A stretch of DNA of 53,860 nucleotides from Nocardioidaceae bacterium (GTDB taxonomy: Bacteria > Actinomycetota > Actinomycetes > Propionibacteriales > Nocardioidaceae), in the NCBI GenBank assembly GCA_030447865.1, contig JAUJOD010000008.1:1-53860 (forward strand). Reading direction: 5' to 3'. Under the pieces are notes generated by a model. It did not search any database. It worked only from the letters and a program-made list of their open reading frames with translations, and was not told the origin of the DNA. This document shows, piece by piece, positions 6,132 to 52,100 of this stretch. Each line of letters starts with the position of its first letter. The stretch's first letter is position 1. The translations under genes and the position numbers were made by a program.

Positions 6132-6132
6132 C

Positions 6133-6741: not shown

Positions 6742-7032
6742 GGTCGACGGTAGCGAATGTCGTAGTCACTACCCGTGATGTGTGAATCATTTGCGGCTAC
6801 TAGACGATTCCGTTAGGACCGACGTCGGGCCAGACTCGGTCTAGGTGCTCGGCGGGTCGCTCTCCTCGCGGCTGCCCACTCAGCCATGGGTGTGGCTCTC
6901 TACCGGTTTGCGTACCCGTCGGGTGCCGTGTCGAGGCGTGGCTCCAGAGGGGACTGCCCAGCTCGTAGTAGCAATGCCCGCCTCGCGTTCCCTGGAGGTC
7001 CACGACGGAGGGCGGCGAGTGCTTTGGCGAAG

Positions 7033-8334
7033 GTGTTCATCGGGGTCGATCCCCACAAGTTGTCGGTAACCATCGAGGTCGTCGACCACCGGGAGACGGT
7101 GTTGGCGACTGGTCGGTTCGGTACCGACAAGGCCGGCTACGCCGCGATGCGCAAGCACGTCGCGTCGTGGCCAGACCGGATCTGGGCGGTCGAGGGCAGC
7201 AACGGCGCCGGCCGCCCATTGGCGCAACGGTTGCTGGCTGACGGCGAGCATGTGGTCGACGTGCCCGCGAAGCTGGCCGCCCGGGCGCGGTTGTTCGACA
7301 CCGGCCATAACCGCAAGACCGACGCCCACGACGCGCACGCGGTCGCGGTGGTCGCTGCCCGCACCCAGGGGCTGCGGGTGCTGTCCTACGACGTCGAGCT
7401 CGAGACGCTGCGGATGCTGGTCGACCGCCGTGAGGAGCTCACCCGGCAACGGATCCAGACCGTCAACCGGCTGCAGCGGCTGCTTGCCGAGCTGACCCCG
7501 GGGCAGGCGAAGAAGGACATCACCGCCTTGCAGGCCAAGGCGATCCTCGCCTCGGTGCGGCCCCGGGACCTGGCCGGGAAGACCCGCCGCCGGCTCGCGG
7601 TCGAACAGCTCACTGAGCTGGTGGCGGTCGAGAAGAAGATCAAGGCCCTCACCAAAGAGCTCAAGGCGATGGTCCACGCGCGGGGCTCGACGTTGATGAC
7701 CCTGCCCGGCGTCGGACCGGTCGTCGCCGCAAGGATCCTGGCCGACGTCGGCGACGTGGCCCGATTCGCCGACCGCAACCGGTTCGCGTCCTGGACCGGC
7801 ACCGCGCCCCTAGACGCCTCGTCTGGGGAGCAGATCCGGCATCGGCTCTCGCGGGCAGGGAACCGGAAGATGAACCACATGCTGCACATCGCCGCCGCCA
7901 CCCAGATCCGGCTCGACACCGAAGGCCGCGCCTACTACCGACGCAAGCAAGCCGAAGGCAAGACCCGGATGGAGGCCATGCGCTGCCTCAAACGCCGGAT
8001 CTCCGACGCCGTCTACCACCAACTCATCGCCGACGCCCGCGCCGTGCAACAGGCCTCGGTCCAGGCGGGCCGGGGAGGGCACTGCGGGGCGTCTGAACAA
8101 TCCTGCGCGGTCGACCTGCCCCCGCACATCGACACTTCGGATCAGCCACTTCCCGGACCCGCAACACCGACGCTACCCCCACCCATCCGGCGTCAGAACC
8201 CCCACGCGGCCTCGACAGCCAGCCCTCCGCGCCGGCGCGCCGAAGCCGTCAAGATGGAGCGCCCCACCGGACGAACGACCTTGACGGCGACAAGCGCCGG
8301 CGCACCCTCAAAGGCGACGAGACCGCGGCCTTGA
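7033..8334 (+). CDS. IS110-family transposase (DEDD, Transposase_20)
   Basis: The start is the GTG at 7033 (VFIGVDPHKLSV); the frame is open further upstream but the upstream part has no transposase similarity. The RuvC-like DEDD domain shows GVDPHK (first Asp), AVEGSNG (Glu) and KTDAHDAHA (last two Asp). The C-terminal Transposase_20 domain shows TLPGVGPVVAARIL, SWTGTAPLDASSGEQ and the catalytic-serine region RLSRAGNRKMN. The protein is about 433 residues, longer than usual, with a Pro/Arg-rich tail after residue 340 that is probably spurious read-through into the element end. A second IS110-type element starts about 15 bases after its stop. The fragment at 5520-5660 derives from a relative. 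Confidence 0.9.
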   Translation: MFIGVDPHKLSVTIEVVDHRETVLATGRFGTDKAGYAAMRKHVASWPDRIWAVEGSNGAGRPLAQRLLADGEHVVDVPAKLAARARLFDTGHNRKTDAHDAHAVAVVAARTQGLRVLSYDVELETLRMLVDRREELTRQRIQTVNRLQRLLAELTPGQAKKDITALQAKAILASVRPRDLAGKTRRRLAVEQLTELVAVEKKIKALTKELKAMVHARGSTLMTLPGVGPVVAARILADVGDVARFADRNRFASWTGTAPLDASSGEQIRHRLSRAGNRKMNHMLHIAAATQIRLDTEGRAYYRRKQAEGKTRMEAMRCLKRRISDAVYHQLIADARAVQQASVQAGRGGHCGASEQSCAVDLPPHIDTSDQPLPGPATPTLPPPIRRQNPHAASTASPPRRRAEAVKMERPTGRTTLTATSAGAPSKATRPRP

Positions 8335-8348
8335 CACAGAGGGGAGCC

Positions 8349-9558
8349 GGTATGACTGTGAGGATCGCCAACGCAGCCTGAAGGTGCTGGGCTGTGGTTG
8401 GTGACGGCGGGTGTGACCCCCGGAATGACTGGCTTTGTGCCTTGCTGCGACCTGTCCGCTCGTGGTTACCGGCCCCGGCCCGGTTGGAGGAGCTGGCCTG
8501 ATCAGGAGCTTGACCACCTGGCGTTAGCGGCGCCGGATGTGTCTCATCACAGTCCTGCCGAGCCTCCGTCCCGGACCGGAACCACGTTCCGTCCGGCGAA
8601 GGAGAGAACGCATGAACAGTCTGACCGATCTGCGCGAGGTGGTCGATGTCGTCATCGGCGTCGACACTCACGTCCATACCCACTCCGCGGCCGTGGTCGA
8701 TGCTGCGACTGGTGGTGTCCTCGACGAGATCACCGTCGAGGCGACAGCCGAGGGCTATGCCGAGCTGGTGGAGTTCGCCAACAACCACGCGATGCTGCGG
8801 GCGTGGGCGATCGAGGGGACCGGTGGTCACGGCGCCGGTCTGAGTCGTCACCTGCTGGAGATGTCGGAGATCGTCATCGAGCTGGACCGCCCGAAGCGGG
8901 CTGCGCGTCGCAACGGCGCGAAGTCAGATCCGCTCGATGCGATCCGCGCTGCACGTGAAGCGATGGCTCGACTGCGGTTGGGAACTCCCCGCACCCAGGG
9001 CGAACGCCAAGCCCTGTCAGTGCTTCTGGCTGCTCGCCGCTCCGCGATCAACGCCTCCACCGAGGCCCAGCAGCAGGTCTTCAGCCTGGTCATCGCAGCA
9101 CCCGAACCCATCCGGGGGCAGGTTCCGCGGCCAGAAGCTTGCCGCGATGCTCAACACCGCCGCCAACCTGCGCCTGCACGCCTCCTGGGACACCGAGACG
9201 ACCAGCACCGTGGTGGCGCTGCGGACCTTGGCCCGTCGCGCGCACGCGATGCTGAAGGAGGCGCGCGAGTTGCAGAAGGCGATCGCGGTCATCATCCGCA
9301 GCTGGCGCCCTGACCTGCTCGAGGAGTTCGGCGTCGGACCGATCGTGGCAGCGACGGTGTTGTGCGCCTGGTCCCACCCTGGCCGTATCCACTCCGAGGC
9401 GGCGTTCGCGATGCTCGCCCGGCGTCGCACCAATCCCGGCGAACAGCGGCCAAGTCACCACCCGGTATCGACTCAACCGCTACGGCGACCGCCAGCTCAA
9501 CAACGCACTGCACACCGTGGTCCAGAGCCGAATCCAGTACCAGCCAGCCACCCGCGAC
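8349..9558 (+). mobile_element. IS110-type element, copy A, 3' end removed by IS6
   Basis: From CGGTATGACTGTGAGG at 8348 to position 9558 this stretch is nearly identical to copy B at 13902-15112 (constant offset of 5554 up to 9417). It abuts the 3' end of the preceding IS110 element. The match stops at 9558, where an IS6 left end begins; the missing 3' part does not reappear after the IS6, so a deletion accompanied that insertion. The first 263 bases are non-coding and correspond to the left end that carries the bridge RNA in IS110 elements. Confidence 0.85.
8612..9558 (+). pseudogene. IS110 transposase, copy A (frameshifted, truncated)
   Basis: The start ATG at 8612 has GGAG upstream. The first part has IGVDTHVHTHSA, AIEGTGGHGAG and KSDPLDAIRAA as DEDD ligands. 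The frame shifts by +1 at a run of five G at 9114-9118 (PEPIRG to RFRGQKLAAM), exactly as in copy B. It differs from copy B by one extra C at about 9418-9420 (GCTCGCCCGG versus GCTCGCCGG), which breaks the second half again. The C-terminus is lost at the IS6 junction. It cannot make a functional transposase as read. Confidence 0.85.
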
Positions 9559-10364
9559 GGCATTGTTGCGCTGTCTGATCGCGGTGGGCGGGAGACTGGT
9601 GCGGTGACTTCTTCAAGGTCGGCGACGGCGTTTGCTGGCTTCCGGTTTCCGCCGGAGGTGATCTCGGTGGCGGTGCGATGGTATCTGCGGTACGGGTTGT
9701 CGTATCGCGACGTCGAGGAGCTGCTCGCGAAGCGTGGCGTGGAGGTCGACCACGTCACCGTCTATCGGTGGGTGCAGCGGTTCACAACTGAGTTCGTCTC
9801 CGCCGCGCGTCCGCTCCGCCACGTTCCCGGCCGCCGGTGGTTCGTCGACGAGACCTACGTCAAGGTCGCCGGCCGATGGACATACCTGTACCGGGCCATC
9901 GATCAGTACGGACAGGTCGTCGACGTTTGGTTGTCTTCTCGGCGTGATCGGTCCGCCGCTAGGACGTTCTTCACCCGGGCCCTCGCTACTGGAAGCGTTC
10001 CTGTTGAGGTCACCACGGACAGCGCACCGGCCTATCCGCGGGTCCTCGACGAACTGATCCCCACCGCTCTGCATATCACGGGCCAGTACGCGAACAACAC
10101 CGTCGAAGCCGACCATGGCCGACTGAAAGCACGGCTACGACCGATGCGTGGCCTCAAGCGGTTCCGAACAGCGCGCACGCTGGCCGCCGGTCATGCCTTC
10201 ATGCAAAACCTCAGACGCGGCCACTACGAGATCGCTACCGACGTGCCAGCACAACACCGACTTCGGGCAGCCTTCGACGATTTAACCCTTGCCATCTGAC
10301 CAACACCACTTCGCGTGCCAAACCGGAGCAACGCTGCCAAGCCATCGCACAATGCAACAGTGCC
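9559..10364 (+). mobile_element. IS6-family insertion sequence, complete
   Basis: The left end GGCATTGTTGCGCTGTC at 9559 and the right end at 10364 (reverse complement GGCACTGTTGCATTGTG) form imperfect terminal inverted repeats, about 18 of 24 positions alike. The length of 806 bp is normal for IS6. No 8-bp target duplication is seen (CCCGCGAC on the left, GTTGACGG on the right), which fits insertion followed by deletion or recombination with another copy. IS6 ends occur also at position 56, and decayed IS6 pieces lie at 18.0 and 19.9 kb. Confidence 0.8.
9604..10299 (+). CDS. IS6-family transposase
   Basis: The protein has about 231 residues from the GTG at 9604, just inside the left end; the frame is open upstream only because it reads into the disrupted IS110 element. 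It has an N-terminal helix-turn-helix (LRYGLSYRDVEELLAKRGVEVDHVTVYRWV) and a DDE catalytic core with WFVDETYVKVAGRW (D), TTDSAPAYPRV (D) and ANNTVEADHGRLKARLRPM (E). This is the classic IS26/IS6 arrangement. Length and motif order are complete, so it is probably active. Confidence 0.92.
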   Translation: MTSSRSATAFAGFRFPPEVISVAVRWYLRYGLSYRDVEELLAKRGVEVDHVTVYRWVQRFTTEFVSAARPLRHVPGRRWFVDETYVKVAGRWTYLYRAIDQYGQVVDVWLSSRRDRSAARTFFTRALATGSVPVEVTTDSAPAYPRVLDELIPTALHITGQYANNTVEADHGRLKARLRPMRGLKRFRTARTLAAGHAFMQNLRRGHYEIATDVPAQHRLRAAFDDLTLAI

Positions 10365-23640: not shown

Positions 23641-25656
<2,016 letters not shown>

Positions 25657-26308: not shown

Positions 26309-28204
26309 ATGGAGCGGGTCGGTCGGGCAACTGTCGGAGCGACGACCGATACTGCTCGGGTGAAGCCGCCGTATAGCAGCGAACTCGAAGGTTTGAATGC
26401 GACATACACTCGCGCTTTGGTTGCCGACATCGATCAGCTACGCGGCGCGATCCTAGATGTGGGCCGGGGCCCGGCGGTCTTCGTCGGATCGGGTGGATCG
26501 ATGGTTCTGGCCCATCTTGCCGAGCGTTTGCATGAGCACGTCTGCCGACAGCCAGCTCGCGCTTGCACCTCATTAGAGCTGCTGGACTTACCGCAACTCG
26601 AGCGGCGCGGTGCAATCCTCTTCTCCTCGAGCGCCAAGCACCCGGACGCCCACGAAGTGTTGGCAGCTTTCCGCAGAGGACGCTTCTCGCCAACGGCGCT
26701 AGTTACTCATCGGTCGAGGGTGGACGTCCAACAGTTAGCTAGTCCGGACACCCGGGTTGTCACGCTCGAGGATCTCGCTCAACCGGACGGCTTCTTGGCG
26801 ACCGGAAGCATCATACAGATCGCCACTCAGCTCTTCCGCGCGTACATGGAAGATCCGCAGCTTCCACGAGCGATCGACGTTGAAGCCGAGACAGACGAGG
26901 CGGACCTCCGCAACGAAGTACTAGTACTTACGCCGCCCTCCTTGACATGTGTCGCGGCAGACATCGAGATTCGGCTCATGGAGTCTGGAGTTGCCTGCGT
27001 GCAGGTCGCTGACTTACGAAACTTCGCCCATGGGCGGCACACCGGTTACTCAAGGCGGATCGAGGACACGACCGTCATTGTATTAAGCGACGCACGCTCG
27101 CAGGCCCTGGCCGAGGGAACGGTGGCTGCGATGCCCGAGGTGGCAGACCTGCGCCGCTGGCGCTGCGACTCCTCATGGGAGACGACAGTCATCAGTCTTC
27201 TCGCTCGCTCGATGCGTTTCATCGACAAGGTCGGCCGGCGTCTGAATGTGGATGTAGCTCGCCCCGCGGTACCGGCGTTCGGCCGGCGGCTGTACCGGCT
27301 ACCGCTTCGGCGGCGAATATCGCAACCGTTGGTCGGAGGGGTGGAGCGGAAGTTGCTTGCCGGTGGCGCAGGCCATGACGCGGCGGGTCGAACTTTCTAC
27401 AGGGAGGCGGCGTCTGCATGGTTGAACGAGTTCGGCAAGCGACGATTCGCTGGTCTGGTGCTGGATTACGACGGAACCGTCTGCTGGACGCGGCGGCGCT
27501 GGGAACTTCCGGACGAGCATGTAAGAAGGGCGTTAGAGATCCTTCTGCGGCAGGGTCTCGTGCTGGGGGTGGCGAGCGGACGAGGCCGGTCCTTGCACGC
27601 CGACCTAAGACGATGGGTGCCGGTGCAGCATTGGGCGCAAGTAGTCGTCGGTCTCTACAACGGAGGGGTGCAGCTTCGACTCGACGAGGATCTTCCGCGG
27701 CTTCGCGAACCCACGGCTTGGAGTCGGGCAGTAACGTCCGCTGTTGGTGATGCGCCGGCCGCCTGGCGGCTTAAGGTCGATGAGCGGGGCGTGCAGGTGA
27801 GCGTCAGCGTGGCAACTGGCGTGCTGCATCACGGCCAGTTGGCAACGTTGTTGCAGGCTCGGTTAGCGGAGGCAGGCGTTGAGGCGCAGGTGGTAGCCTC
27901 AGGACACAGCGTCGACATTCTCGAACCGGTAAGCAGCAAGACGTCCGTTGCCGACGCAGTCGAGCGCCGTGCTGGCGGGGTTGTACTCGCGATTGGTGAT
28001 CAAGGGCAGCTTGGGGGCAACGACCATGCGCTGTTGGCCAGCACCTCGTCGTCTCTCAGCGTGGATCGGTGCTCGGCCGACCCGTTGACCTGCTGGTTCA
28101 TAGGCAGTGGGGAGTACGTGGGGCCTGACCTCCTTAGGCGATACATCAAGTCACTGCGAAAGCGCCGGGGTGGCTTTGCGATGACTGGGGCGGAGATCTC
28201 GTGA
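26309..28204 (+). CDS. Tandem-SIS sugar isomerase-like domain fused to HAD phosphatase
   Basis: The protein has 631 residues from the ATG at 26309; a GTG at 26360 (VKPPYSSELEGLN) is an equally possible start. Residues 50-180 are a first SIS domain (VFVGSGGSMVLAHLAERL, ILFSSSAKHPDAHEVL). Residues 200-300 are a second, with the active-site-like block DLRNFAHGRHTGYSRR at 236-250 as in GlmS/AgaS isomerases. Residues 375-625 are a HAD hydrolase: DYDGT at 386-390, SGRG at 423-426, K544 in SSKTS and GDQGQLGGND at 563-572, with a C2-type cap between. It should isomerise and/or dephosphorylate a sugar phosphate; the substrate is unknown. The stop overlaps the next start (GTGA). First gene of a five-gene operon. 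Confidence 0.82.
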   Translation: MERVGRATVGATTDTARVKPPYSSELEGLNATYTRALVADIDQLRGAILDVGRGPAVFVGSGGSMVLAHLAERLHEHVCRQPARACTSLELLDLPQLERRGAILFSSSAKHPDAHEVLAAFRRGRFSPTALVTHRSRVDVQQLASPDTRVVTLEDLAQPDGFLATGSIIQIATQLFRAYMEDPQLPRAIDVEAETDEADLRNEVLVLTPPSLTCVAADIEIRLMESGVACVQVADLRNFAHGRHTGYSRRIEDTTVIVLSDARSQALAEGTVAAMPEVADLRRWRCDSSWETTVISLLARSMRFIDKVGRRLNVDVARPAVPAFGRRLYRLPLRRRISQPLVGGVERKLLAGGAGHDAAGRTFYREAASAWLNEFGKRRFAGLVLDYDGTVCWTRRRWELPDEHVRRALEILLRQGLVLGVASGRGRSLHADLRRWVPVQHWAQVVVGLYNGGVQLRLDEDLPRLREPTAWSRAVTSAVGDAPAAWRLKVDERGVQVSVSVATGVLHHGQLATLLQARLAEAGVEAQVVASGHSVDILEPVSSKTSVADAVERRAGGVVLAIGDQGQLGGNDHALLASTSSSLSVDRCSADPLTCWFIGSGEYVGPDLLRRYIKSLRKRRGGFAMTGAEIS

Positions 28205-29286
28205 AGTCAGAGCTGGCTGAGGAGTTACTCAACCGTTTGATGGGTTGGGACCGCGCGGCGTTCCAGGAAAAGGTCCGCCGGCTGGAGGCGCTGGCGTCAT
28301 ACAAGTTCGATGAGTACGGCAACTTCCGGCCGGGAGTCAAGTTCTTCGAGAGTCTTGCGGCGTGGCTCGACCAGTTCGACCGACCGGGGGAGCGGGCGAC
28401 AGCCCTCGACTTCGTGCTGGACCGCCTAATTTTCATCTCCGCCGCCGAGATGTCGCACCTAGTCGAACTCGTCTACCCGGACCATATCGAACCGGTGCTT
28501 CAACGGCGGGTGGCCGATGAGCTTGAATGCTCCCCATATGCGATCTCGCGCATCGCGAACGACGACGCGTTCTCGATCCTGCGCCGTCGTTCGTTGATCT
28601 TAGGGGCCTCCGACGGCGCTCGGCTGGATCGTCTGCGACGCTCAACCCCATTTCTATCGCACGAGCAGTTCTTACAGAGCAGCGAACCACCGATCGACCT
28701 AATCGCCCCGATGCGGGACAAACTCGAGGAGGCGCTCGACCAGAGCAAGCTAGAGGCCCAGAAGACGTTCGGACATATCTTCTTGGTAGACGACTTCGCG
28801 GGATCGGGCGAGACGATGCTTCGTAAGAAGGACGGCGAGTTCAAGGGAAAGCTCATCAAGCTGAACACTGCGATTGGTCAGCTCATAGACAGCGACTTGG
28901 TGGCAGCGGACGTCGAGGTCACGATCGTCATCTACGTCGCGACCGAGCAGGCGCACAAACACCTCGATGACGTGCTCGCGGCGAGCTCCTTACCTGAGTG
29001 GGAAGTGCGCATCGTGCAAACGCTGCCGTCGTCGATCCGCGTTGATCGGCAGGATCGAGCAATGGCGGAATTGGCCGAGCGCTACTACGACGAGGTTATG
29101 AGCGACGAGCACAAGGGCCGCGCGCCGCTGGGATACGCCGGGTGCGCGCTCCCGGTCGTGCTTTCGCATAACACGCCGAACAATTCCGTCTCCTTGCTGT
29201 GGGCGGACACGACCCAGGAGGCCGATAGCTTGAATCGCCGCGCGTTGTTCCCCCGGTACGAGCGCCATCATCGCGACCGCCCATGA
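28201..29286 (+). CDS. Phosphoribosyltransferase-like protein
   Basis: The protein has 361 residues from the GTG at 28201, overlapping the upstream stop by 4 bases; it likewise overlaps the next start by 4 bases. The central signature HIFLVDDFAGSGETML (residues 192-207, VDDFAGSGET at 196-205) is the PRPP-binding loop of type I PRTase folds. The C-terminal HNTPNNSVSLLWADT (323-337) and ALFPRYERH (348-356) are, from memory, hallmarks of a defence-associated PRTase-like group whose reaction is not known. The N-terminal 150 residues are helical. It could transfer a ribosyl-phosphate group onto a base or a macromolecule, or bind a nucleotide as a sensor. The coupling to SIS-HAD and kinase genes suggests small-molecule chemistry. 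Confidence 0.82.
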   Translation: MKSELAEELLNRLMGWDRAAFQEKVRRLEALASYKFDEYGNFRPGVKFFESLAAWLDQFDRPGERATALDFVLDRLIFISAAEMSHLVELVYPDHIEPVLQRRVADELECSPYAISRIANDDAFSILRRRSLILGASDGARLDRLRRSTPFLSHEQFLQSSEPPIDLIAPMRDKLEEALDQSKLEAQKTFGHIFLVDDFAGSGETMLRKKDGEFKGKLIKLNTAIGQLIDSDLVAADVEVTIVIYVATEQAHKHLDDVLAASSLPEWEVRIVQTLPSSIRVDRQDRAMAELAERYYDEVMSDEHKGRAPLGYAGCALPVVLSHNTPNNSVSLLWADTTQEADSLNRRALFPRYERHHRDRP

Positions 29287-31238
29287 GGTCATACGTCAAC
29301 CCCTTCCGTTCTCGCACGTCCGAGCAGGTGGCTCAGCAAGGGCTAGATCGCTACCTGCGCACGTTTGGCGCCGACGCGCTGGATCTCCTACCAGACGAGT
29401 TGTGGGAGCGGCCGCTGATCATCCGCAGCGCTCCCGGTGCCGGAAAAACGTCTCTGTTAAGGGCGGTTAGCGCTGAAGCACTTCGGGGTCTTTCGCGCCG
29501 GCGCTCGGGTCATGAGGACCTGATTGGGCGGCTGCAATCAATTGGAGCATTGGACGTGAACGGCCAGCCGGCCGTACTTGGCTTCCGTGTCCCGCTCGTC
29601 AGAGACTTTCGCGGCATCATCGACTTGGAGACCGAACCGGCCGCTGCTCAGCGGACGTTCTTGCGCCTGCTCGACGCCCGAATAGTCGCCGAGTTCTGTG
29701 ATGCCATCGAACGGCTCGTCGATGTCGATGAGGGCTCAGCGTTGGACGCGGTAACGCTCAAGGCCGAGGGCGCGGGTGAAACCTCGCTCGCGCGCCTCGG
29801 TGGGGAGCAGGCGCAAGACATGCGTCGATGGGCACGCCAAACGGAGGAGGATATCCTCGATCGGCTTGATTCAGTTCTGCCGCGAAGCGATCACCTGGAC
29901 GGCCACGCAGCCCTCTACAGCCTTCGGGCGCTGAGCGGCGTGCAATTGATGGTTGGCGGCGAGCCAAGTCCCCTGCGGCCGCTACTGCTGCTTGATGACG
30001 GCCAGGAACTCGCCCCCGCCCAGCGGAAACTGCTGCTGGACGCCTTCCATGATCGAGAGTTGCGCCTGGCGCGGTGGTACACCGAGCGCTACTCAGCGAT
30101 GGAGCCCGAGGATCTTGTTGGCGATGGGGAGCCGCGGCGTAACAGTGTGCCGGTGTGGCTTGAGCGGGAGGCGGCCCGGATGGGCGCGGTTACCCGACGT
30201 GGGACCAAGACCCGCCAGTTCGAGAAGTTGCTGGCAGACATCGCCGGCCGTCGCGCCAACCGGCTGTTGCTCGAGTACGACAACGTCGACTTGGAGTTCG
30301 TGCAGCTACTTGACGCTGACGGGGGCGACGAGCTCGTGCCCCGGGCCGAGCGGGCGGTGGCGACGATCCGCGACCGGCTGCTCGCCGAGAGTCCTGCTAG
30401 CGATCGCTACTCGAGGTGGTTCGCCGACGCGGATGCTCTAGGCGCACTCGATTCTGCCCGTCGGTGGCGCGAACTTGAGATCGTCATCGCCCGAGACCGT
30501 GACCGAGTTCAGCTGGGGCTTTTCGAAGTACAGCTCAACGACGATGAACGCAAGACACGCTCGGACGCCGCCATTCGGGAAGCCGCGGACCTGTGGCTGC
30601 GACGGGAATTCGGGCTCCCTTTCTACTGGGGCTCCCAGCGCATGGCCAAGCTCTCAGCGGAGAACATCGAGCAGTACCTGAAATTGAGCGCGGACATGTT
30701 CGATGAAATGCTCGCGGGCATCACGCTGCGGCGAGGTGCTGCAGTCAGTCGACTGCGCCAGGATGCCGCCTTGACATCAGCGTGCGATCAATTTTGGGCT
30801 GACATCCCGGATCGCCGGATCGGGGGACGAGCGATACAGCAGCTGCTGCGCCACGTTGCCAAACTCTGCCGTGCCGAGACATATCGGCCCAAGGCCCCGT
30901 ATGCCCCTGGTGTAACCGGAACTGCGCTGAGCATGCGGGACCGAGCGAGGCTGCTCGACCCCGACCTTCGTCAACGGATGCCGGGGGCTCCTGAGTTGTT
31001 CGCTGCGTTGCATGGAGCTATCGGCCATAATTTGCTGCGATCGCGCAAAGATTATTCCGTGAAGAACGAGCGGTGGATGGTTCTGTACCTCAACCGTCTG
31101 ACGTGCGTCCGCTATGGCCTGCCGCTTGGCTACGGTGGGTTCCGCGAGAAAGCACTCGAGGAGATGTGTCAGTGGATGCTCAGCGACACCGAGGACGTCA
31201 CGGAACCTACCGTCCAGGAGTCCCTGTATCTCGTCTGA
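29283..31238 (+). CDS. P-loop ATPase, ORC/CDC6-like AAA+ type
   Basis: The protein has 651 residues from the ATG at 29283 (ATGA overlap with the PRTase gene). An NPFRSRTSEQ block at 6-15 precedes Walker A RSAPGAGKTSLLR (48-60) and Walker B LLLLDDGQEL (234-243). The large helical C-terminal half (280-651) has no recognised enzymatic domain and may be a sensor or oligomerisation region. From memory the NPFxxRxSE start with SAPGAGKTSLLR is typical of standalone bacterial ATPases annotated as ORC-CDC6-like, which occur in defence-type loci. A likely job is an NTP-driven switch or sensor for the metabolite-handling enzymes beside it. No HTH or nuclease is evident. The next gene starts inside its 3' end. 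Confidence 0.82.
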   Translation: MRSYVNPFRSRTSEQVAQQGLDRYLRTFGADALDLLPDELWERPLIIRSAPGAGKTSLLRAVSAEALRGLSRRRSGHEDLIGRLQSIGALDVNGQPAVLGFRVPLVRDFRGIIDLETEPAAAQRTFLRLLDARIVAEFCDAIERLVDVDEGSALDAVTLKAEGAGETSLARLGGEQAQDMRRWARQTEEDILDRLDSVLPRSDHLDGHAALYSLRALSGVQLMVGGEPSPLRPLLLLDDGQELAPAQRKLLLDAFHDRELRLARWYTERYSAMEPEDLVGDGEPRRNSVPVWLEREAARMGAVTRRGTKTRQFEKLLADIAGRRANRLLLEYDNVDLEFVQLLDADGGDELVPRAERAVATIRDRLLAESPASDRYSRWFADADALGALDSARRWRELEIVIARDRDRVQLGLFEVQLNDDERKTRSDAAIREAADLWLRREFGLPFYWGSQRMAKLSAENIEQYLKLSADMFDEMLAGITLRRGAAVSRLRQDAALTSACDQFWADIPDRRIGGRAIQQLLRHVAKLCRAETYRPKAPYAPGVTGTALSMRDRARLLDPDLRQRMPGAPELFAALHGAIGHNLLRSRKDYSVKNERWMVLYLNRLTCVRYGLPLGYGGFREKALEEMCQWMLSDTEDVTEPTVQESLYLV

Positions 31239-32307
31239 GCCATTGGGCGCATCCTCTACTCATCAACGACGGCGCTTTCGATGAAGTTTGGGCCCGACCA
31301 CGCGAAGATTCGGTGCTCTTCGTTGTCGGATCGGGATTCGATCCGCGCGCTGTCACGGTGCTAGAGCGCCTCACCGCAGCGACGACGCGGCGGATCGACG
31401 GCTTGCTGATTGAGCTACCCGAGGGAACCACCGACCTGGCCGTTCGATCAATAGCGCGGACTAATCGGGAACGAATCGGGAATCTCGTCGAGCGCGGCGG
31501 TGGCGCGCTCCGTTCGCAGGGGTTGCCGGAGTACAACGACTCACGTTCGCTAGGGCGCCTCATCAGCCGCGAATTCCAAGAGGCCGGCATCCTGGACGCA
31601 TACGGAGAGGTAGTTCTTGAAATCTCGGCGATGCCGAGGTCGGTGTTCTTCCCGCTCATCCGTGGGGTTCTCGAACGCTCTCACCTTTCCGACACCGACT
31701 CGCGGCGGTGGTCGGGTGATCTTCATGTGGCGGTATGCGAGAACCCCGAGGCCGACGAGAGTGTCCTTGAGGAGGGCACAACCCCCATGGCGCCGATTGG
31801 AGGATTCGCGGGTGGTCGAGGCGAGAAACCTACAACGACCATCTGGGTACCGGTGCTCGGTGAACGCGCCGCGGTGCGAGTCAGGGCGCTATACGAGGAG
31901 CTCGAACCTGACGAAACCTGTCCGGTTTTGCCCTGGCCCTCGCGCGACCCTCGTCGCGGCGATCGGCTGATGCTTGAGCACCGTCGGCTCCTGTTCGAGG
32001 ACATTCGTCTTGAGCCCCGTACGTCATCTACGCTGCGGAGCGCAACCCCTTCGACCTCTACCGAACTTTGGGCGCGCTGCACGAGCGTTATTTGCAATCA
32101 CTTCGTCCGTTGGGCACCGTCGGCATGGTCCTATCATCTCACTCGTCCAAGCTGCTCTCCGTGGGTGTCCTTCTTACCGCCTACGAGCACAATCTTGTCG
32201 TCCAGCACGTCAGTCCCGGCTCGTACGGCCTTCACGAAGGCGCGGTGGACCTGCGCGACCGCGACGAGATTTACGATGTTTGGCTAACTGGGGAACCATA
32301 CCGATGA
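31172..32307 (+). CDS. Rossmann-like protein of unknown family, with one-base frameshift
   Basis: The GTG at 31172 is chosen because GAGGAG at 31158-31163 lies 8 bases upstream; this overlaps the ATPase gene by 67 bases. The N-terminal part has VLFVVGSGFDPRAVTVLERL, a nucleotide-binding-like strand-loop-helix, and VVLEISAMPRSVFFPLI, a hydrophobic strand then an acidic/Ser motif. After LFEDIRLEP the frame breaks at CCCC (32015-32018). In the -1 frame the protein continues naturally: YVIYAAERNPFDLYRTL, LHERYLQSLRPLG, SSHSSKLLSVG. One more C restores about 378 residues, so either the run was mis-called or the gene is mutated. Its end overlaps the kinase start (ATGA). I do not recognise the family; the fold resemblance to CARF-like sensors is only an impression. 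Confidence 0.7.
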
Positions 32308-33356
32308 CTGAACGTCCGTCGATTGTCTGCGCGGGCTACATGCCGCTTGATGTGATCCGCACCAGTAGGGGCATTCTGAGCCGACAAGCGGGTGGCACTG
32401 CAGCGAACGTTGCCGCCATCCTTGCCTTCTTCGGCTGGCGTTCAGTTCTCGCCGGTCGTTCCGGTGACGACCCGGCAGGAGATTCTCTCCTGACTGACCT
32501 GAGCGATGCGGGCGTGGACGTCGGGCAGATCCGCTGCGCGCCACAGACGCTCACCCCCCGCCTGGTCCATGATGTGCGTCCGGACGGGCACTTCTTCAAC
32601 TACAGGTGCCCGGATTGCCTGTCTAGTTTCCCGAGCAGCAGACCACTTACCCTTGGCGACGCTGCGAGCTGCGCAGTGGCGCACCCGGCGCCGGGGGTGT
32701 TCTTCTTCGACCGCGCTAATCCTGGGACGGTCTATCTCGCAGAGCACTACGCGGGTCAAGGCAGCGTCATCGTCTTCGAGCCGTCCGTGCCCGCTAACGC
32801 CGCGCTGCTCGGGCGAGCCGCGGCCGTCGCCCATGTCATCAAGCACAGCGATGACCGCTCGGTCGGTGGGCTGGACGACTTGCACGTCAGTCCGCGTCCC
32901 GGACAACTGCGTATCGTCACACACGGAGCCGAAGGACTTGAGTTGCGAGTCGGCGCAAGCCGACGTCGACGGTATCCGGCTATTGCCACACTTGCGGTCG
33001 ACACTGGCGGCGCCGGCGACTGGACGACGGCAGGCTTCTTGGCGAAGGCCGCGCGTCGCGGTCAACTTGCTCGAGGGGAGCTCGACGACGCGTTGCGCTT
33101 TGGACAGGCACTTGCGGCCGTTAGCTGCGCGGCGATTGGGTCTCGCGGGCTGATGAGATTGACGCGGGACTCGGTGATGCGGCGCGCGCGCGCGGTGCTA
33201 GCCGACGGCGGGCTGGCCTCCAAACCGAGAATCCCGGACCCGAGCCCACTGATACGTGTGCACGGCGCATGTCCTAGTTGCCTGATGCCGCTTCGCGATG
33301 TGGCACAACGAGACGAGCCGGTCACCCCGACCTCTGAGCCTGCTTTCCAGTCGTAG
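32304..33356 (+). CDS. PfkB/ribokinase-family kinase with two CxxC pairs
   Basis: The protein has 350 residues from the ATG at 32304. PfkB signature 1 appears as GGTAANVAAILAFFGW (30-45) with GRSGDDPAGD after it; signature 2 appears as DTGGAGDWTTAGFLAK (233-248), with the anion-hole GAGD and catalytic Asp D239. It should phosphorylate a sugar or nucleoside using ATP. Two features are unusual for the family: RCPDC at 101-105 in the substrate-lid region and GACPSC at 321-326 in a C-terminal extension, together a possible zinc site. Last gene of the operon; no clear terminator follows before IS debris at 33.4 kb. Confidence 0.87.
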   Translation: MTERPSIVCAGYMPLDVIRTSRGILSRQAGGTAANVAAILAFFGWRSVLAGRSGDDPAGDSLLTDLSDAGVDVGQIRCAPQTLTPRLVHDVRPDGHFFNYRCPDCLSSFPSSRPLTLGDAASCAVAHPAPGVFFFDRANPGTVYLAEHYAGQGSVIVFEPSVPANAALLGRAAAVAHVIKHSDDRSVGGLDDLHVSPRPGQLRIVTHGAEGLELRVGASRRRRYPAIATLAVDTGGAGDWTTAGFLAKAARRGQLARGELDDALRFGQALAAVSCAAIGSRGLMRLTRDSVMRRARAVLADGGLASKPRIPDPSPLIRVHGACPSCLMPLRDVAQRDEPVTPTSEPAFQS

Positions 33357-34493: not shown

Positions 34494-35716
34494 TCAAGCA
34501 GCTGCTGCTTCGTCCTCCTGTTTCAGAGCCGGCCAGGCGGCGTGCTCGTCCCAGGGCTGGTCGTTGGTGACGCACCACCACATTCGGCCGATGAGCTTGT
34601 TGGCGAGGTTGCGCAGGGCGGCGTTGTGGTGGTCTCCGATGGCTCGCCGATGGTCGTAGTGAGCACGCGCTCCAGGTGACCAGGTGAGGGCCGCGAATGC
34701 CCACCAGTGGCACGCGTCGCCGAGACGTTTGTTCCGGACCTTTCGAGCTTTGACGTAGTGCGAGCGGCCGGACGCCTTCGTCACTGGTGCGGTGCCAGCG
34801 AAGGCGCGGACACCGTTCAACGAGGTGAAGCGTTCTGGGTCGTCGCCGAGCTCGGCCAGCACGCGGGCAGCCACAACTGGTCCAAGGCCCGGCGCGGAGC
34901 GCAGGACGGGCGCGAGTGGATGGGCCTCGAACTCACGTCCCAGTTCGGCTTCGAGCGCGTCGACCGAGGCGCGCATGGCGTCGATGATCCCGACCAGCCC
35001 CTGACGGCCAGACCGAGCGCTACCTCGACGCGTTCGGGCTGCCTGAGCGCGGGGGTCTTGAGGTCGGTCAGGATCTGGTCGACTAGTGCTCGGTCATTGC
35101 GGCGCCCGCACCTGTGCAGCAGGCTCTCGACGCGTCGCCGGGTCAGCTTCGCGGCCGTGGCAGGCGTCGGTGCTGCCTGGAGCACGGTGGTTGCCGCGTG
35201 GTGCTTGAGCTTCGGAAACGCCTCGATTGCTTGGGGCTAAAACTCCAAGAGCACCGACCGGAGCCGGCTGATCGTCTGGTGCAGCGCCCAGATGGCCTCC
35301 TGGTGCTGGCGCGCCAAAGCCTTGATCGCCAGCGCGTGCTCGATGCTGGCCGGCAGGGGCCGATGCATATGCAGATCAGTGCGCAGGATGTTGGCCAGCA
35401 CCACGGCGTCCCCGGGATCCGACTTCCCGCCGGCCTGGCCGTGTCGTTCCCGGTAACGTGCCACCGCTCTCGGATTGATCGGATAGACGGTGAAACCAGC
35501 GCCGGCCAGGGCAACGACAAGCAGGTTCTTGTCGGTTTCCATGGCGACCTGTGTGTCCTCAGGGCAGCCGCCATGCTCCGCGATGAGTTCCACCAGGGCG
35601 GTGAATCCCGCCACGTCCCCGCCGATGCGCGACCGGGCAAGGACCTTGCCCTCGGCGTCGACGAGCGCAACATCATGATGGGCCTCGGCCCAGTCGATCC
35701 CGCAGGTGATCGTCAT
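34494..35716 (-). pseudogene. IS110-family transposase with nonsense codon and frameshift
   Basis: The start ATG at 35716 has GGAGGAG upstream. The DEDD domain is intact: TCGIDWAEAHHDVALVD, VAMETDKNLL and GGKSDPGDAVVLAN. The frame meets TAG at about 35237 where EFYPQAIEAF would be expected (EF*PQAIEAF), continues in the same frame, then shifts near 35010 (GWSGSST versus GLVGIIDAMRAS). The C-terminal part has LRSAPGLGPVVAARVLAELG, AFAGTAPVTKASGRSHYVK and RKVRNKRLGDA. It is unrelated in sequence to the IS110 copies at 8-15 kb. Confidence 0.85.
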
Positions 35717-36015
35717 GTCACTCCTCCTTTGTCTCAGCGGTCGAGCTCTGGGCTGTGGCGGCGACCTAATGGAAGCGCTCGAGGCGCGGCATCTCACAAG
35801 CCATTCACGAACCCAGGTGGCCGGCAGGGTCACCGTCTACGTTGAGACCTCGGTCGAGTCGGTGAAGTCATGGGAAGTGATCACCTGCAGGCAGCCTGCG
35901 GCAGATCAAAGCCATCGAGGCGATCGCTCGTGGTGTCTGGCGCCGTTGACGGCTGGCACAGACGGAATCGTCGTAGTGCTCAGGCTGGTTGCTCGACGCG
36001 ATTAGGCTCGTCGTT

Positions 36016-46165: not shown

Positions 46166-49100
46166 ATGCGTCGCAGCAAGCGGTGGATTGGCGTGGTGTT
46201 GGGGTGGGCGGTGCCGCTCTCTGGGTTGGCGTTCGTCGCGCCGGTGGCGGCTGCGGTGCCCGCGCCATCGGCGGAGCCGGAGTCGGTGGTGGCTCCGGTG
46301 GGGTTGGAGCGGCCGGATCCGGTGTCGGCGATGGTCACCGCACAGTCCAGCGATGCGCCGGTGGAGGACTTGTCGCAGCGGACGTCGGACACCCAGGTGT
46401 TCGCGAACCCGGACGGTTCCTGGTCGACCGAGATCGCCTCGGGCCCGGTCCGGGTGCAGCGGGAGGACGGGTCGTGGGCGGACCTGGACACCGGGCTGGC
46501 GCAGAGCCGTGATGGCAGCTGGTCGCCGCGGGTGTCGCTGGTGGAGGTGGAGTTTTCCAACGGCGGGCAGGACCCGTTCGCGGAGTTGACCGCGAGGGAC
46601 GGTTCGAGTGTGCGGTTGCGGTGGCCGCAGGCGTTGCCGGCGCCGGTGGTGGCTGGGTCGACGCTGACCTATCCGGGGGTGGTCGCTGGCGCTGACCTGG
46701 TGGTGGAGGCGTTGCCCAGCGGGTTCTCGCACTCGATCGTGCTGCACCAGGCGCCGGTCGGTCCGGCGGTGTACCGGGTCGGGGTGGAAACCGACGGCTT
46801 GGAGGTGGTGCAGGAGCCTGGCGGTGGGTTGTCGGTGCGCAAGCCGTCGGGGCGGGAGGTGGCTTCGGCGCCGGTGCCGTTGATGTGGGACGACAGCGCC
46901 GGCCCGGGTGAAGTGCCGGATCAGGTGTCGCCGCTGGAGGTGGCGGTGCAGACCGACGGCGGCGCCACCGAGTTGGTGCTGGCCGCTGACGAGCAGATGC
47001 TGGCCGACCCCGCGACGCAGTTCCCGGTGACGATCGACCCGTCGTTCGTGACCGGCCCGAGCCGGGACACCTGGGTGATGAACGCCGACTACACCACCTC
47101 TCAGTACGCCTCCACAGAGTTGCGGGCGGGTTCCTACGATGGCGGTGGGCACCGGGCCCGGTCGTTGATCCGGTTCGACGTGTCGGCGTTGCGGGGCAAG
47201 CATGTGCTGTCCGCGGCGATGCGGTTGCGTAACTACTACTCCGGATCCTGCAATTCGGGGGCGATCGGGGTGCGGCGGATCACCGAACCGTGGACCGCGG
47301 ACAACCTGACCTGGGGCAACCAGCCGCCGGCTGATGGGGTGGTGGACGAGTTCCTCCCCGCCTACGGCTACACCGGTTGCCCGGACGCGGGGACCGCGTC
47401 GTGGGACCTGCAGTCGATGGTGCAGGGGTGGGCCGACGGGCGGTTCGGCAACTACGGGGTGCTCGTACGGGCCACCGACGAGACCAGCGTCTACGCGTGG
47501 CGGAAGTACCGGTCGAGTGAGTTCACCGACAAGGCGGTGCAACCGAAGCTGGTGGTCACCTACAACTCCTATCCGAACATGGCGGGGACGCCGTCGCTGT
47601 CCCCGGTTGTCGGGTCGGCGAGTAGCGGGCTGGTGACCCGCAGTACCACCCCAACCCTGGCTGCGACCGTCTCGGACCCCGACGGCGGGAAGCTGCGCGG
47701 ACAGTTCCGGATCAAATCGGGTGGGGTGCTGATCTGGTCGAAGGCCTCGGCGTTGGTGTCGTCGGGGTCGACTGCGTCGGTGGCGGTGCCGTCGGGGGTG
47801 CTGACCCATGGCGGCTCCTATGTGTTGGAGGTGCTCGGCGACGACGACACCGACGTGTCGCGGCAGTTGGCTTCGACCAGTTTCACCGTGGACACCAAGG
47901 CGCCGGCGGCACCTGGAGTCAGCGCGACCGAGTTCGTCGACGGGCAGTGGAAGGACGTCCCGCCGGCGTCGAACACGTTCACGTTCTCCTCCACGGCCGG
48001 GGACGTCACCTCGTTCAGCTACGCCAAGGACGGTGGGGCGTGGGCGGGTAAGGCGGCCAGCAGCTCTGGCACGGCGAGCATCGACTGGGCCCCGCAGAAC
48101 GGCGCGCATTCGTTGAGCGTGAAGGCGGTCGACAAGGCCGGCAACACCAGCGCCACGACCACGTTCCGGTTCGGGGTGGGGGGCGCGGAGTTGCGGCTGC
48201 CGCTGGACGGGGACCGTTCCACCTCGACGTTCGACGTCGCCGCCACCGCACCCGGTGGTGCCACCGGGGCTTCGTTGCAGTGGCGGCTGGCCGGTGACAG
48301 CGCGGCGGTGTGGACCACGGCTAGCGGGACGGTGTCGACGCAGACCGGTCAGCCGTGGACGGGGGAGGTCAGCGACAGCGGTACGGCGTCGCTGGTGCAG
48401 CAGGTGCTGTGGGACTCCACCAAGGAGCCGGGGGTGCCGTCCCTTGGCTTGTTGCAGCTGCGGGTGTGCTTCGACTACTCCAACGCGTTGCGCCGCTGCT
48501 CCCCGAAGAAGCAGGTGCACACCGTGCCGCACGCGTTCGGCTCGTCGTTCCCCACCGCCCCGGTGGGCCCGGGTGAGGTGGGGTTGTTCACTGGCGAGCT
48601 GCGGGTCCCGGCGGTCGACGTGGAGGAGTGGACCGCTAGCGGGTTGTTGTCGCTTGGCCGCTCCCACCTGTCGTTGGGCGGACCCACGGCGGGGGCGGCA
48701 CGGGTGTTCGGGCCCGGTTGGGTGGCCGACCTGGGCGGCCCGTCGACGGGTGCCGCCGGGTTGGTGGTGGTCGACCGCACCGCCGAGGATGGGTCGGTGG
48801 TGCTGCAGGCGCCGTGGGGGGAGTCGTTTGTCTACCAGCACGCTGACGGGGGCCGGGGGGCGCAGCGCACCGGGAAGTACCTGGGCGTAGGGGAGACCGG
48901 CACGTTCGACGACCGGCTCACCCTCAGCAGCGGGGGGTCGGGGGCGGCGACACACACGCTCACCCTGGTCGAGTCCGACGGCACCAGCACCGACTGGGAA
49001 CGCACGGGCGGTAGCTGGCGGTTGGCCCGGGTCACAGAGCCGGCGCAGATCGGCACCACCCGCTACGCCTACAACGGCGAGGGGTTGGTGTCGTGGATCT

Positions 49101-52100
49101 TCGCCCCCGCCCCGCCCGGGGTGGCGTGCAGTGCGACCAGCCAAGGCCCGGGCTGCCGGGCGTTGCACCTCGCCTACACGCTCGTGGCCAGCGAGCCGCG
49201 GTTGGCGTCGGTGGACCTGATCGGCTACGACCCGAAACCGGACGCCGCGGGCCGCCCAACCAGCGCAGCGGGCATGTCATCGGTGACCGTCGTCCGCTAC
49301 GCCTACGACACGACTGGCCGGTTGGCGGCGAGTTGGGATCCCCGGTTCGGTGACGGCACGCAGGCGTTGCGGACCAGATACAGCTATGAGGTGGTCGGCG
49401 GCAAGACCCGATTGGCGGCACTGACCCCGCCGGGTGAGGCGACCTGGACCTTCGGTTACGACGACACCGGAAGGTTGACCAAGGCCACCCGGCCACAGCC
49501 GAGCGGGTCGGGGACCAGCACCTGGTCAATCGGCTACCAGGTGCCGACCGGCGGCATCGGGCTGCCGGACCTGCGACCGACCGCGACCACCGCGTGGGGG
49601 CAGAACGAGGGCGACGCACCGTTGGTCGGTGCCGCGGTATGGGCCCCCGATCGGGTGCCGGCTTTCCCGCCGACGAGCGAGGACTACGGGTACGCGTCGC
49701 TGTTCTACTTCACCGCCGAGGGGCGCACCACCAACACCGGCGGCTACGGGGCCGGGGCGTGGCAGATCGACACCGGCTGGTACGACGAACACGGCAACCT
49801 GGTGCGCGCGCTCAGCGCCGCTAACCGGGCGGCGGCGCTCAGCGACCCCGTCGAGTCGGCCACGGCGGCGGAGGAGCTGTCATCGTTCACCGTCTACGAC
49901 GCCGACGGCACCCGTATCGAGCAGGAGTGGGGCCCGGGCCGGGAGCTGGTCCTCGACGACGGCTCGACCATCATCGGTCGCGACCACACCAGCTACCGCT
50001 ACGACGACGAAACCACCGACGCCCAGCTGCTCGCCGGACGACCCGCCGATTCCCCGCCCGGGGGTTTCGACCTGGTGGTGCTGGCCGAACGCTCGACCAC
50101 CGACACCGCCCGGGAAAATGTCTTCGACACCAAACGGGTGCGCTACGGGTACGCGCCCGTGGTCGCCGGGGACGGCAACGGGTGGGTGCTCGGCACTCCG
50201 ACCACCACCAGCACCGAGTTGGGCGACGGGTCGTGGTCGGTGCAGACCACCCGTTACGACTCTGAGGGCCGGTTGATCGAGCTGCGCCAACCCGGTGGGA
50301 AGGCCGACGCCAGCGGCGCGGGCAACGACCCCAAGTCGCACCGCATCGTCTACTACACCGCCGACTCCTCCGCTGCCGACCCAGCGTGTGCCAACCAGCC
50401 CGCGTGGGCCGGGTTGGCATGCCGTAACGGACCCGCCACGCAACCCGCTTCGGGGAAACCGTTGCCGATCGCTTGGACCACTGGTTACGACTACCTGCTC
50501 AACCCCGTTCGGGTCGAGGAACGTTCCGGCGACCTCACCCGCACCACGGTCTTGGTCACCGACGCCGCTGGGCGTGTCACCCGGCGCAGCCTGCAGGTCG
50601 TGAACGCACCGATGGGTGATCAACCGGTACCCGATGTGAGTTACGCCTACGACGCGGCCACCGGGCAACTGATCTCCCAGGCGGCGGGTGGCGAGAGCGT
50701 TGAAGTCAGCTACGACTCCTGGGGACAGGTCACCCGGTACACGACCAACACCACCGGCGGCCCCAGCAACACCGCCACGACCACATACGACCCGGTGGGG
50801 CGAATCCAGACCCACCACGACGGCAAGGGCACCTACACCTACACCTATGACGGGGTCGACGCGAGCGGGCGGACCGAACGGCGCGGCCTGGTGACAGCTG
50901 TCGACGTGGGCCTGCCCAACACCGCCGTGCTGAGAGTCGCCTACGACGGCGACGCTCGACCAGTGCAACTGGCCTACCCTAACGGGACCACCGCGCAGTG
51001 GGTGCACAACAGCGCCAGCGATACCACCGGACTGATCTATACCCAAGCCGCCGAACCGCTGCTGGCGTTCACCGCCGCGGTCGACCGGGACGGGCGGATC
51101 CGAAACACCACCAGTCCCACCTCCGAGCAGAGCTATCGCTACGACCCGTTGGGCCGGCTCACCGCGGTCGCCGACACCTACCAAGGCCAGTGCGCGATCC
51201 GCGACTACCGCTTCGACGCCGACTCGAACCGCACCGCCGTCACCACGCACCCCGCCGCCGCCGACGGGAGCTGCAGCACAACCACTAGCGGCCAGATCGA
51301 CAGCTCCACTTTCGACGACGCCGACCGGATCACTGACCCCGGGTACAACTACGACAACCTTGGCCGCACCCGCACCGTCCCGGCAGCCGACACCGACCAG
51401 CCCACCGCCGGGCAACTTGAGGTCGCCTACCACGCAAACGACATGGTGGCTGCCCTCACCCAGCCAGGCATTCCCGACGGTGCCGGCGGCACCACCGCCA
51501 AGACCAAGACATTCCTCCTCGACGCCGCCGACCGGATTCGGAAAGTCGTGGACACCACCAGCGGCATCGGGGAAACCCGCCGGATCGTTAATCACTACGC
51601 CGACACCAGCGACTCACCAGTCTGGACCGCGACCAGCCATGACAGCGGCGCAAGTTGGAGCTGGGAGCGCAACATCACCGCCCCCACCGGCGACCTCGCG
51701 CTCATCCAAAGCAGCGACGGCACCAGCCAACTGCAACTGGCCAACCTACACGGTGACATCGCTGCGACCACGGACGCAAACACCACCAGCGGGATCAACA
51801 CCTACCACGAAAACACGGAATACGGGCAACCCCGAGACGACATCCCTGACCAACGCCGCTATGGCTGGCTCGGCGCCCATCAACGCTCCACCGACACCAT
51901 CGGCGGCCTCACCCTCATGGGCGCCCGCCTCTACAACCCGGCAACGGGCCGGTTCCTCTCGGTCGACCCGATCGTCGGAGGGACCCCCAACGCCTACGTT
52001 TATCCGCCCGATCCAGTGAACAATGTCGACCTCGACGGCCTGAGGTGCCTGTGCGGGCCGGGGGTGTGGGGCTCGCTGGGCGGGAGAATCACCGTTCCAC

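Follow-up and report, generated by a model that had tools for sequence, protein, structure and literature searches.

What could be the purpose of an operon that joins a sugar-phosphate isomerase/phosphatase fusion, a phosphoribosyltransferase (PRTase), an ORC/CDC6-like ATPase, a CARF protein and a PfkB kinase? Such an operon, of five gapless plus-strand genes at positions 26309-33356, lies in the window analysed here, which is the whole of contig C1 (53,860 bases) from the genome of a Nocardioidaceae bacterium (3.12 Mb, 97.8% complete). The five-gene operon is real and is conserved far beyond chance. We give an even chance to the reading that it is one copy of a conflict system that is widespread, mobile and self-contained: gating of the PRTase would fall to the ATPase and the CARF protein, tuning of its product to a sugar arm, and we infer a defensive role, probably anti-phage or anti-plasmid.

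The recurrence of the set is most easily seen on plasmids. In tblastn searches of 72,556 plasmids, the ORC-like ATPase and the CARF protein each match 17 records, and the two lists are identical; the SIS-HAD fusion is found in the same 17 records and one other, and the PRTase in the same 17 and two others. Annotation of the 17 plasmids located PfkB in 16 (it is missing in R. lentis) and, in 8, a NADAR protein, a sixth frequent member of other loci that was missed when the set was initially annotated as having five members. The five-gene order of the window is kept in 8 of the 17, in one of these with NADAR added. Relatives at the nucleotide level were not found on the plasmids.

A wider sample was obtained from 84,980 bacterial and archaeal genomes with a conserved PRTase pattern as anchor, from which the best 80 of 180 confirmed relatives were taken, and IMG/VR contributed 4 loci for a total of 84. 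Both the pattern and the hidden Markov models (HMMs) used for annotation derive from members of the module, and as a consequence PRTases in other settings are under-sampled. A strict count was confined to 47 of the 84 loci, the remaining 37 being dropped for a flank of less than 4.5 kb to the left or 7.5 kb to the right of the PRTase gene. All 47 hold SIS, HAD, PRTase, ORC and CARF, accompanied by PfkB only (26 loci), NADAR only (11) or both (10), with no locus lacking the two, and 20 of the 47 have exactly the gene order of the window. Across all 84 loci, ORC is found in 84, SIS and HAD in 80 each, CARF in 75, PfkB in 54 and NADAR in 38, and 8 loci are without both PfkB and NADAR. The hosts of the 80 genome loci comprise 13 named bacterial phyla, one archaeal metagenome-assembled genome (Nitrososphaerota) and two unassigned genomes; many are metagenome-assembled, and single rows may be contaminants. 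One copy resides in Caulobacter vibrioides strain T5M6 (L079), a laboratory species for which standard phages exist. The five genes thus recur together, often in the same order and across unrelated hosts, as the initial annotation had anticipated, and their recurrence is not confined to a known biosynthetic cluster. Close to the window the distribution is sparse: of 39 related genomes, the window's own is the only 1 with CARF, and 394 genomes of its class yield 2, of which one is again the window's own and the other a weak match.

The organisation of the operon is as compact as was first proposed, with five same-strand genes that follow one another without gaps in the open reading frame (ORF) list and with all of the motifs originally quoted (Table 1). 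Overlaps of 4, 4, 67 and 4 bases had been reported, which is partly wrong: the 67-base value is a matter of start-site choice, and all four junctions are 4-base overlaps once gene 4 is read across a frameshift, from a TTG at 31235 to the stop at 32305-32307. At the ORC/CARF junction this TTG (TTGA, 4 bases) suits the start of the homologues better than the start that gives the 67-base overlap, and at the CARF/PfkB junction the kinase begins at the ATG at 32304 (ATGA, 4 bases). Overlaps are also frequent between the neighbouring pairs of related loci, for which start codons were picked by a simple rule: 32/54 for SIS-HAD/PRTase, 56/75 for PRTase/ORC, 43/72 for ORC/CARF and 17/32 for CARF/PfkB.

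Table 1. Genes of the operon, with positions in the window.
Feature	Position	Strand	Remarks
SIS-HAD fusion	26309..28204	+	ORF open back to 26138; N-terminal double SIS, C-terminal HAD phosphatase (predicted)
PRTase-CE phosphoribosyltransferase	28201..29286	+	GTG start; PRPP-type motif VDDFAGSGET
ORC/CDC6-like P-loop ATPase	29283..31238	+	PF24389 profile; Walker A
Tandem-CARF protein CARF6 (predicted)	31235..32307	+	Parts 31235-~32026 and ~32017-32307 in different frames; frameshift near 32015
PfkB sugar/nucleoside kinase	32304..33356	+	ATG at 32304; PF00294; CxxC pairs

Gene 4 had been described as an unknown Rossmann-like protein and as an intact ORF, and both descriptions require revision. 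It encodes a CARF protein (FRAMESHIFTED in the window copy), which has no convincing match in Pfam and, by sequence, no convincing solved relative, and which is matched in PADLOC by CARF6 (E 1.3e-54); the CARF6 models match 39 of 39 relatives. A model of the intact 376-residue protein of an Acidimicrobiaceae relative (L020; predicted local distance difference test score, pLDDT, 90.1) shows two Rossmann-like domains. Realigned with VIA-align, which re-aligns Foldseek's own candidates, this model has Can1 on top (Z 14.9, 245 residues, root-mean-square deviation (rmsd) 14.4 with both domains superposed), and after it come Csm6, Cdn1, Card1 and Can2. Plain Foldseek places Can2, Csa3 and Csm6 at ranks 31, 45 and 47, and its top rows, which are transporter and KaiC domains with TM scores of about 0.2, were judged spurious. 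We take Can1 to be a nuclease with tandem CARF domains that is activated by cyclic tetra-adenylate (cA4); CARF sensors are known readers of cyclic oligoadenylates made by Cas10. Judged by its profile matches, gene 4 of the window is a tandem-CARF protein of clade CARF6, with a fold predicted from the model of L020, and this identity shifts the nearest relatives of the operon from Ter systems to CARF/CRISPR-type signalling.

The module HMM matches gene 4 of the window in two frames, at 31226-32026 (5e-52) and at 32017-32304 (1e-27). A single frameshift, overlooked in the initial annotation, therefore lies near 32015, beyond which the conserved CARF sequence runs in another frame to the stop codon; the C-terminal end of the ORF that stops at 32287 is read in the wrong frame. 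The frameshift is possibly an assembly error because a run of four C adjoins the site; the frames of the remaining four genes are uninterrupted. At other loci, split or doubled hits hint at broken copies (L008, L009, L019, L028, L041 and L081).

The proteins encoded on either side of the PRTase/ORC junction belong to families that already have profiles, PRTase-CE (PF24390) and ORC-CDC6-like (PF24389), and in the window the two are adjacent and both score above the curated cut-offs. The PRTase reaches 80.9 bits against PF24390 (cut-off 27, E 1.8e-22) and is labelled PRTase_III-A by PADLOC (1.7e-19), with no relative in the PDB at an E-value of 10. PRTases join a base or an amine to ribose-5-phosphate from phosphoribosyl pyrophosphate (PRPP), and the DDF acidic pair within VDDFAGSGET, which we take to be the PRPP-binding motif, is retained in 80 of 81 sequences, window included, as is SDG in all 81. 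Among 396 actinobacterial genomes, PRTase-CE exceeds its cut-off in 3, the window's own among them, and the weak matches in 40 other actinobacterial genomes were taken as ordinary PRTases. The ATPase scores 34 bits against PF24389 (cut-off 27, E 1.8e-8); Walker A is present in the window protein, and G.GK[TS] is found in 75 of 75 homologues.

The sugar arm consists of the SIS-HAD fusion and PfkB, to which NADAR is an exchangeable addition at other loci. SIS enzymes isomerise sugar phosphates, HAD enzymes remove phosphate and PfkB kinases add it. Neither half of the SIS-HAD protein has a Pfam match, and the curated HAD-IIB cut-off (TIGR01484) is missed by the window HAD (16.6 versus 41.8 bits), but profile searches of the PDB return phosphosugar isomerases (E 2.5e-5) and a HAD protein (E 1.2e-4). 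In an AlphaFold2 model of pLDDT 90.7, Foldseek relates the SIS half to the GlmS isomerase domain (E 8e-11) and NagB-II (2e-10), and the HAD half to phosphomannomutase (E 1.6e-8). Membership of the C-terminal half in the HAD superfamily is thereby supported by both PDB profile and model match, and the gene 1 product is predicted from the model to have the double SIS fold of the SIS phosphosugar isomerases. The module HMMs, which were built including the window sequence, match gene 1 at 1e-116 (SIS) and 2e-84 (HAD). Motif conservation in the family, again with the window included, is extensive: GRG.S in 75/75 and D[YFW]DGT in 71/75 for HAD, the remaining four keeping D-x-D, and GSGGS in 68/75 for SIS.

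The kinase of the window scores 83.8 bits against PF00294 (cut-off 25.8), and GxGD is found in 55 of 55 sequences (window included), with the GG..N motif present too. Its nearest solved relatives are fructokinase, the 1tyy sugar kinase, presumably an aminoimidazole riboside kinase, and ketohexokinase. The initial reading of these genes as a sugar-phosphate isomerase/phosphatase and a kinase agrees with the folds and profiles of both proteins. Most members of the PfkB alignment carry CxxC pairs, the first being an internal CPxC and the second a CxxC at the C-terminus, and several members from alphaproteobacteria (L047, L050, L073 and L083) have them in reduced form; the pairs suggest a putative structural zinc site, which would be unusual for PfkB kinases. 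NADAR, for which a module HMM scan gave no match in the window operon, is closest to YbiA (E 1e-29) and is related to the NADAR of 8bau (4e-12), with EHAYQ.GK kept in 37 of 38 proteins from the other loci. The only recurrent gene seen beside it is that of a small helix-turn-helix (HTH) protein, although no search for ADP-ribosyltransferases was made. PMC9503650 describes NADAR domains as ribosyl N-glycosidases, which cleave ribosyl N-glycosides. From the preservation of their motifs, PRTase, HAD, SIS, PfkB, NADAR and ORC all look active, and the activities expected of PRTase, NADAR, SIS, HAD and PfkB allow the set to be read as one that would write and unwrite a phosphoribosyl compound.

Comparison of pairwise distances resolves the module into two co-inherited units, PRTase-ORC-CARF and SIS-HAD-PfkB, and an exchangeable NADAR. 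Within the triad the correlations are 0.94 (PRTase-ORC), 0.95 (PRTase-CARF) and 0.96 (ORC-CARF), and SIS-HAD against PfkB gives 0.95, while values between the two units are 0.64-0.86; for every pair without NADAR, none of 300 permutations reaches the observed correlation. NADAR is uncorrelated with the triad or with SIS-HAD (r 0.00-0.06, n 34-36, with 74 to 138 of 300 permutations as high) and correlates with PfkB (r 0.80, n 16, 0/300 permutations as high). A PRTase tree of 60 rows implies 6 changes for NADAR and a single one for PfkB, and it unites the loci with NADAR only in one clade. The notion that NADAR and PfkB replace each other was accordingly set aside: none of the 47 strict loci lacks both, but a PfkB that changes once on the tree represents a single event and provides no test. 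Also significant are the plasmids of R. tumorigenes and S. meliloti (L006, 7829-18480; L008, 1-12036), on which two diverged triads (CARF 27-28% and ORC about 24% identical) accompany one SIS-HAD/PfkB/NADAR set. The sharing of one sugar arm by two triads suggests that a diffusible metabolite links the units.

The nature of the CARF ligand bears directly on an alternative in which the operon is a CARF effector module eavesdropping on the cyclic oligonucleotides of type III CRISPR or of CBASS (cyclic-oligonucleotide-based antiphage signalling system), made elsewhere in the cell, with the PRTase as a type III-A accessory effector and the sugar genes ancillary. The PADLOC labels PRTase_III-A and CARF6 speak for this, as does a predicted CARF fold that is that of cA4/cA6 (cyclic tetra- and hexa-adenylate) sensors. 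A survey for cyclases covered 46 genomes hand-chosen from 81 (the window and the 80 genome loci), some of them incomplete, and two cyclase families in all, SMODS being searched as PF18144 only. Strong matches to the Cas10 palm (E < 1e-13) were found in 8 and to SMODS (E < 1e-9) in 5 of the 46, with a union of 12; when all matches above the curated cut-offs are counted, these figures become 17, 10 and 24, although GGDEF cyclases probably account for the weak Cas10 matches. The window genome has neither a Cas10-palm nor a SMODS match, and 34 of the 46 module genomes are without a strong match to either, so for most carriers a cyclic oligonucleotide made by these enzymes is an improbable CARF ligand. 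In the one genome for which the module and a cyclase-family match could be placed on one contig (L033, 4.8 Mb), the two are about 2.1 Mb apart. Furthermore, the sugar arm is found in all 47 complete loci and is thus not ancillary. We consider the eavesdropping explanation unlikely.

Parts of the module are also encountered in other settings, in particular in three extra plasmid records: one with a PRTase without other parts (L148), one with a SIS-HAD relative (L149) and one Streptomyces cluster (L147). In the last of these (NZ_CP109092.1, Streptomyces scopuliridis plasmid, 7947-9859), a PRTase-CE protein (26% identity, pairwise E 5e-27) and a CARF-like protein (HMM E 3e-9; hhalign probability 96 over 121 columns) form a pair with a 4-base overlap, amid a phosphonate-type cluster of phosphoenolpyruvate mutase, aconitase, an HMGL-family enzyme, two PhyH-family proteins, inositol monophosphatase and glucose-6-phosphate isomerase. 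The ORC, SIS, HAD, PfkB and NADAR HMMs match none of the eight neighbours tested, and the CARF partner matches only itself among plasmids. Matches of the Streptomyces PRTase in 38 of 295 genomes of the G056 group were short, weak stretches and were taken as ordinary PRTases. The pair possibly represents a new biosynthetic role, and its location within a biosynthetic cluster implies that PRTase and CARF can together serve small-molecule chemistry. The SIS-HAD relative (5068-6762, R. ruizarguesonis plasmid), which is without a start, lies downstream of sugar ABC (ATP-binding cassette)-transport and aldose-epimerase genes and provides a lead to the sugar substrate of SIS-HAD. In an actinobacterium (L104, 1-3756), a distant PRTase-CE (E 2e-8 to the module HMM) is followed by a P-loop-ATPase-like protein that the module ORC HMM does not match at an E-value of 1 and is preceded by a DNA-methyltransferase-like gene (both neighbours identified by eye); no match of the CARF, SIS, HAD, PfkB or NADAR HMMs was found within 3.9 kb.

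These loci bring forward a second alternative, that the operon is no conflict system but a mobile gene set that makes or breaks down an unusual phosphoribosyl or sugar compound, be it a natural product or a nutrient, with the ATPase and CARF protein as regulators or enzymes. It would account for the metabolic folds of most of the genes, for the Streptomyces pair and for the SIS-HAD relative beside sugar transport, and ABC- and RND (resistance-nodulation-division)-type transporter-like ORFs were indeed seen by eye within 7 kb of 4 loci each. The conserved gene set itself contains no transporter gene, the distribution among the window's relatives and class is sporadic, and the module resides on plasmids, all of which argue against such a role; moreover, to our knowledge an ORC/CDC6-like ATPase with a CARF protein is not usual in catabolic operons. 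A purely metabolic set is on these grounds improbable.

Plasmid residence is in turn what would be expected of an addiction or exclusion system, in which the PRTase or its product would be a toxin, SIS-HAD, PfkB and NADAR the antidote, and ORC and CARF the triggers that respond to plasmid loss or to the entry of a rival. The module is found on 17 plasmids, on some of which it lies beside repABC or conjugation genes; the division into two units of which one can be duplicated, and the broken copies at several loci, as expected of a toxin under loss, would also fit. The module is, in contrast, also present on very large, chromosome-sized contigs (L033, 4.8 Mb; L044, 3.3 Mb), and we regard addiction as very unlikely.

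The genomic setting of the module supports a mobile, defence-like neighbourhood to a moderate degree. Of the 17 plasmids, 8 are predicted conjugative and 1 mobilizable. By eye, the recurrent neighbours are a small HTH protein (14 loci; all 12 that are listed hold NADAR), serine recombinases (7 loci) and type I restriction-modification-like genes (5). When 109 proteins hand-picked from the 208 nearest were compared with 109 of 123 control proteins, the stretches of module genomes used being 14 in number, the PADLOC families matched at E 1e-10 numbered 142 versus 73, figures that count families rather than proteins, as a single methyltransferase can match many, and for which the first 25 of each list were inspected. 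Pfam and PADLOC identified type IV coupling proteins, integrases, a type I methyltransferase, Fic and one BrxL among the neighbours, and among the controls Pfam identified transporters together with one restriction enzyme and one cytosine methylase. A phage-encoded module was considered and rejected, as ORC and PRTase match none of 50,697 phage records, though four IMG/VR contigs carry the module.

The contig of the window is itself rich in insertion sequences. By inspection, the operon is flanked by transposase-like ORFs at 23641-25535 and 34494-35833, which we take to be IstA/IstB-like and IS110-like, respectively, and transposase-like ORF pairs with identical first 60 residues occur at 8612-9313/14166-14867 and at 20189-21204/37564-38822. 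A SIR2_2-domain protein (3010-4446, plus strand, E 4e-15), with weak PADLOC matches to Dsr1, LmuA and ThsA, is a probable second defence gene, and is overlapped by a small ORF at 4433-4837. The PADLOC match of a methyltransferase-domain protein (1593-2564, minus strand) to mad2 (E 7e-13) probably reflects a shared methyltransferase fold only. A 2071-residue protein (46226-52441, plus strand) with CBM96, Ig-like and RHS repeats is possibly a polymorphic-toxin-type surface protein, and a small ORF at the contig end (53516-53785, minus strand), the start of which appears Cas2/VapD-like by eye, has no Pfam or PADLOC match.

Several described systems resemble the module in part. The CARF protein shares with Can1, an effector of type III CRISPR, two CARF-type Rossmann domains in one chain, and differs in the arrangement of these domains, as the large rmsd of the superposition illustrates, and in having no fused nuclease, so that any effector must act in trans. 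Type III CRISPR accessory systems and CBASS are set apart by the lack in the window genome of Cas10 and SMODS (PF18144), respectively. Ter-associated cassettes for nucleoside-like metabolites presumably also combine HAD and PRTase in one conflict-type operon, and the module differs from them by CARF, SIS and PfkB; a Ter cassette had been discounted from the start, and rightly, as a Pfam scan of 15 window proteins gave no Ter- or ATP-grasp-like match. The optional NADAR resembles the NADAR N-glycosidases (YbiA and DarT-DarG-like systems with NADAR), but the window operon is without it. Full-text literature searches returned no description of the whole set, which the literature on CARF classification, type III accessories or immune components may list, and the accessible parts of PMC9503650, PMC7824862, PMC4012209, PMC7159879, PMC12839542 and PMC13092281 do not describe it. 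The families concerned (PRTase-CE, ORC-CDC6-like, CARF6 and PRTase_III-A) are already catalogued, and the neighbourhood has thus been partly seen by others.

In the conflict system that we propose, the ATPase, as a switch or a detector of invaders, and the ligand-bound tandem CARF protein would gate the PRTase, which, with PRPP as the phosphoribose donor, would form a nucleotide-like compound. Hydrolysis, dephosphorylation, isomerisation or rephosphorylation of this compound or of its sugar by NADAR, HAD/SIS and PfkB would control how much of it accumulates and keep the cell from harming itself. Production or consumption of the CARF ligand within the module is inferred, as are the identity of the metabolite, the direction of flow through the sugar arm and toxicity. 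As no match to a nuclease family was obtained for any of the five proteins, the output may be growth arrest, through an abnormal nucleotide or a drain on PRPP.

A number of observations weigh against this proposal. The window copy may be inactive because its CARF gene is frameshifted, and the DD of the Walker B region is present in only 67 of 75 ORC proteins from other loci. With 26 of the 47 complete loci lacking it, NADAR cannot be an obligatory eraser. Admitting every match above the cut-offs raises the genomes with a cyclase-family match to 24/46, and with two such families searched an outside source of cyclic nucleotides is possible. The Streptomyces pair indicates that the parts can have ordinary metabolic roles, as may SIS-HAD, whose plasmid relative has no triad within a 12.7 kb stretch. 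Finally, the neighbour setting is only moderately defence-like, given that the controls also hold a restriction/methylation set, and the absence of ORC and PRTase from the phage records fits a host-side system and shows no arms race.

A more specific version of the conflict system, in which a PRPP-derived phosphoribosyl messenger is made by the PRTase, read, with no nucleotide cyclase involved, by a tandem CARF protein and erased by the sugar-phosphate/N-glycosidase arm, is offered tentatively and with considerable doubt. If true, it would add to Cas10, CD-NTases and TIR domains a further route to an immune second messenger. Each of the 47 complete loci links CARF6 with an ORC-like ATPase and with enzymes of PRPP and sugar-phosphate type, in a compact module of five or six touching genes that is found both on plasmids and in genomes. 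The question of the CARF6 ligand is thereby made directly testable, and its answer might bring to light another class of immune second messenger.

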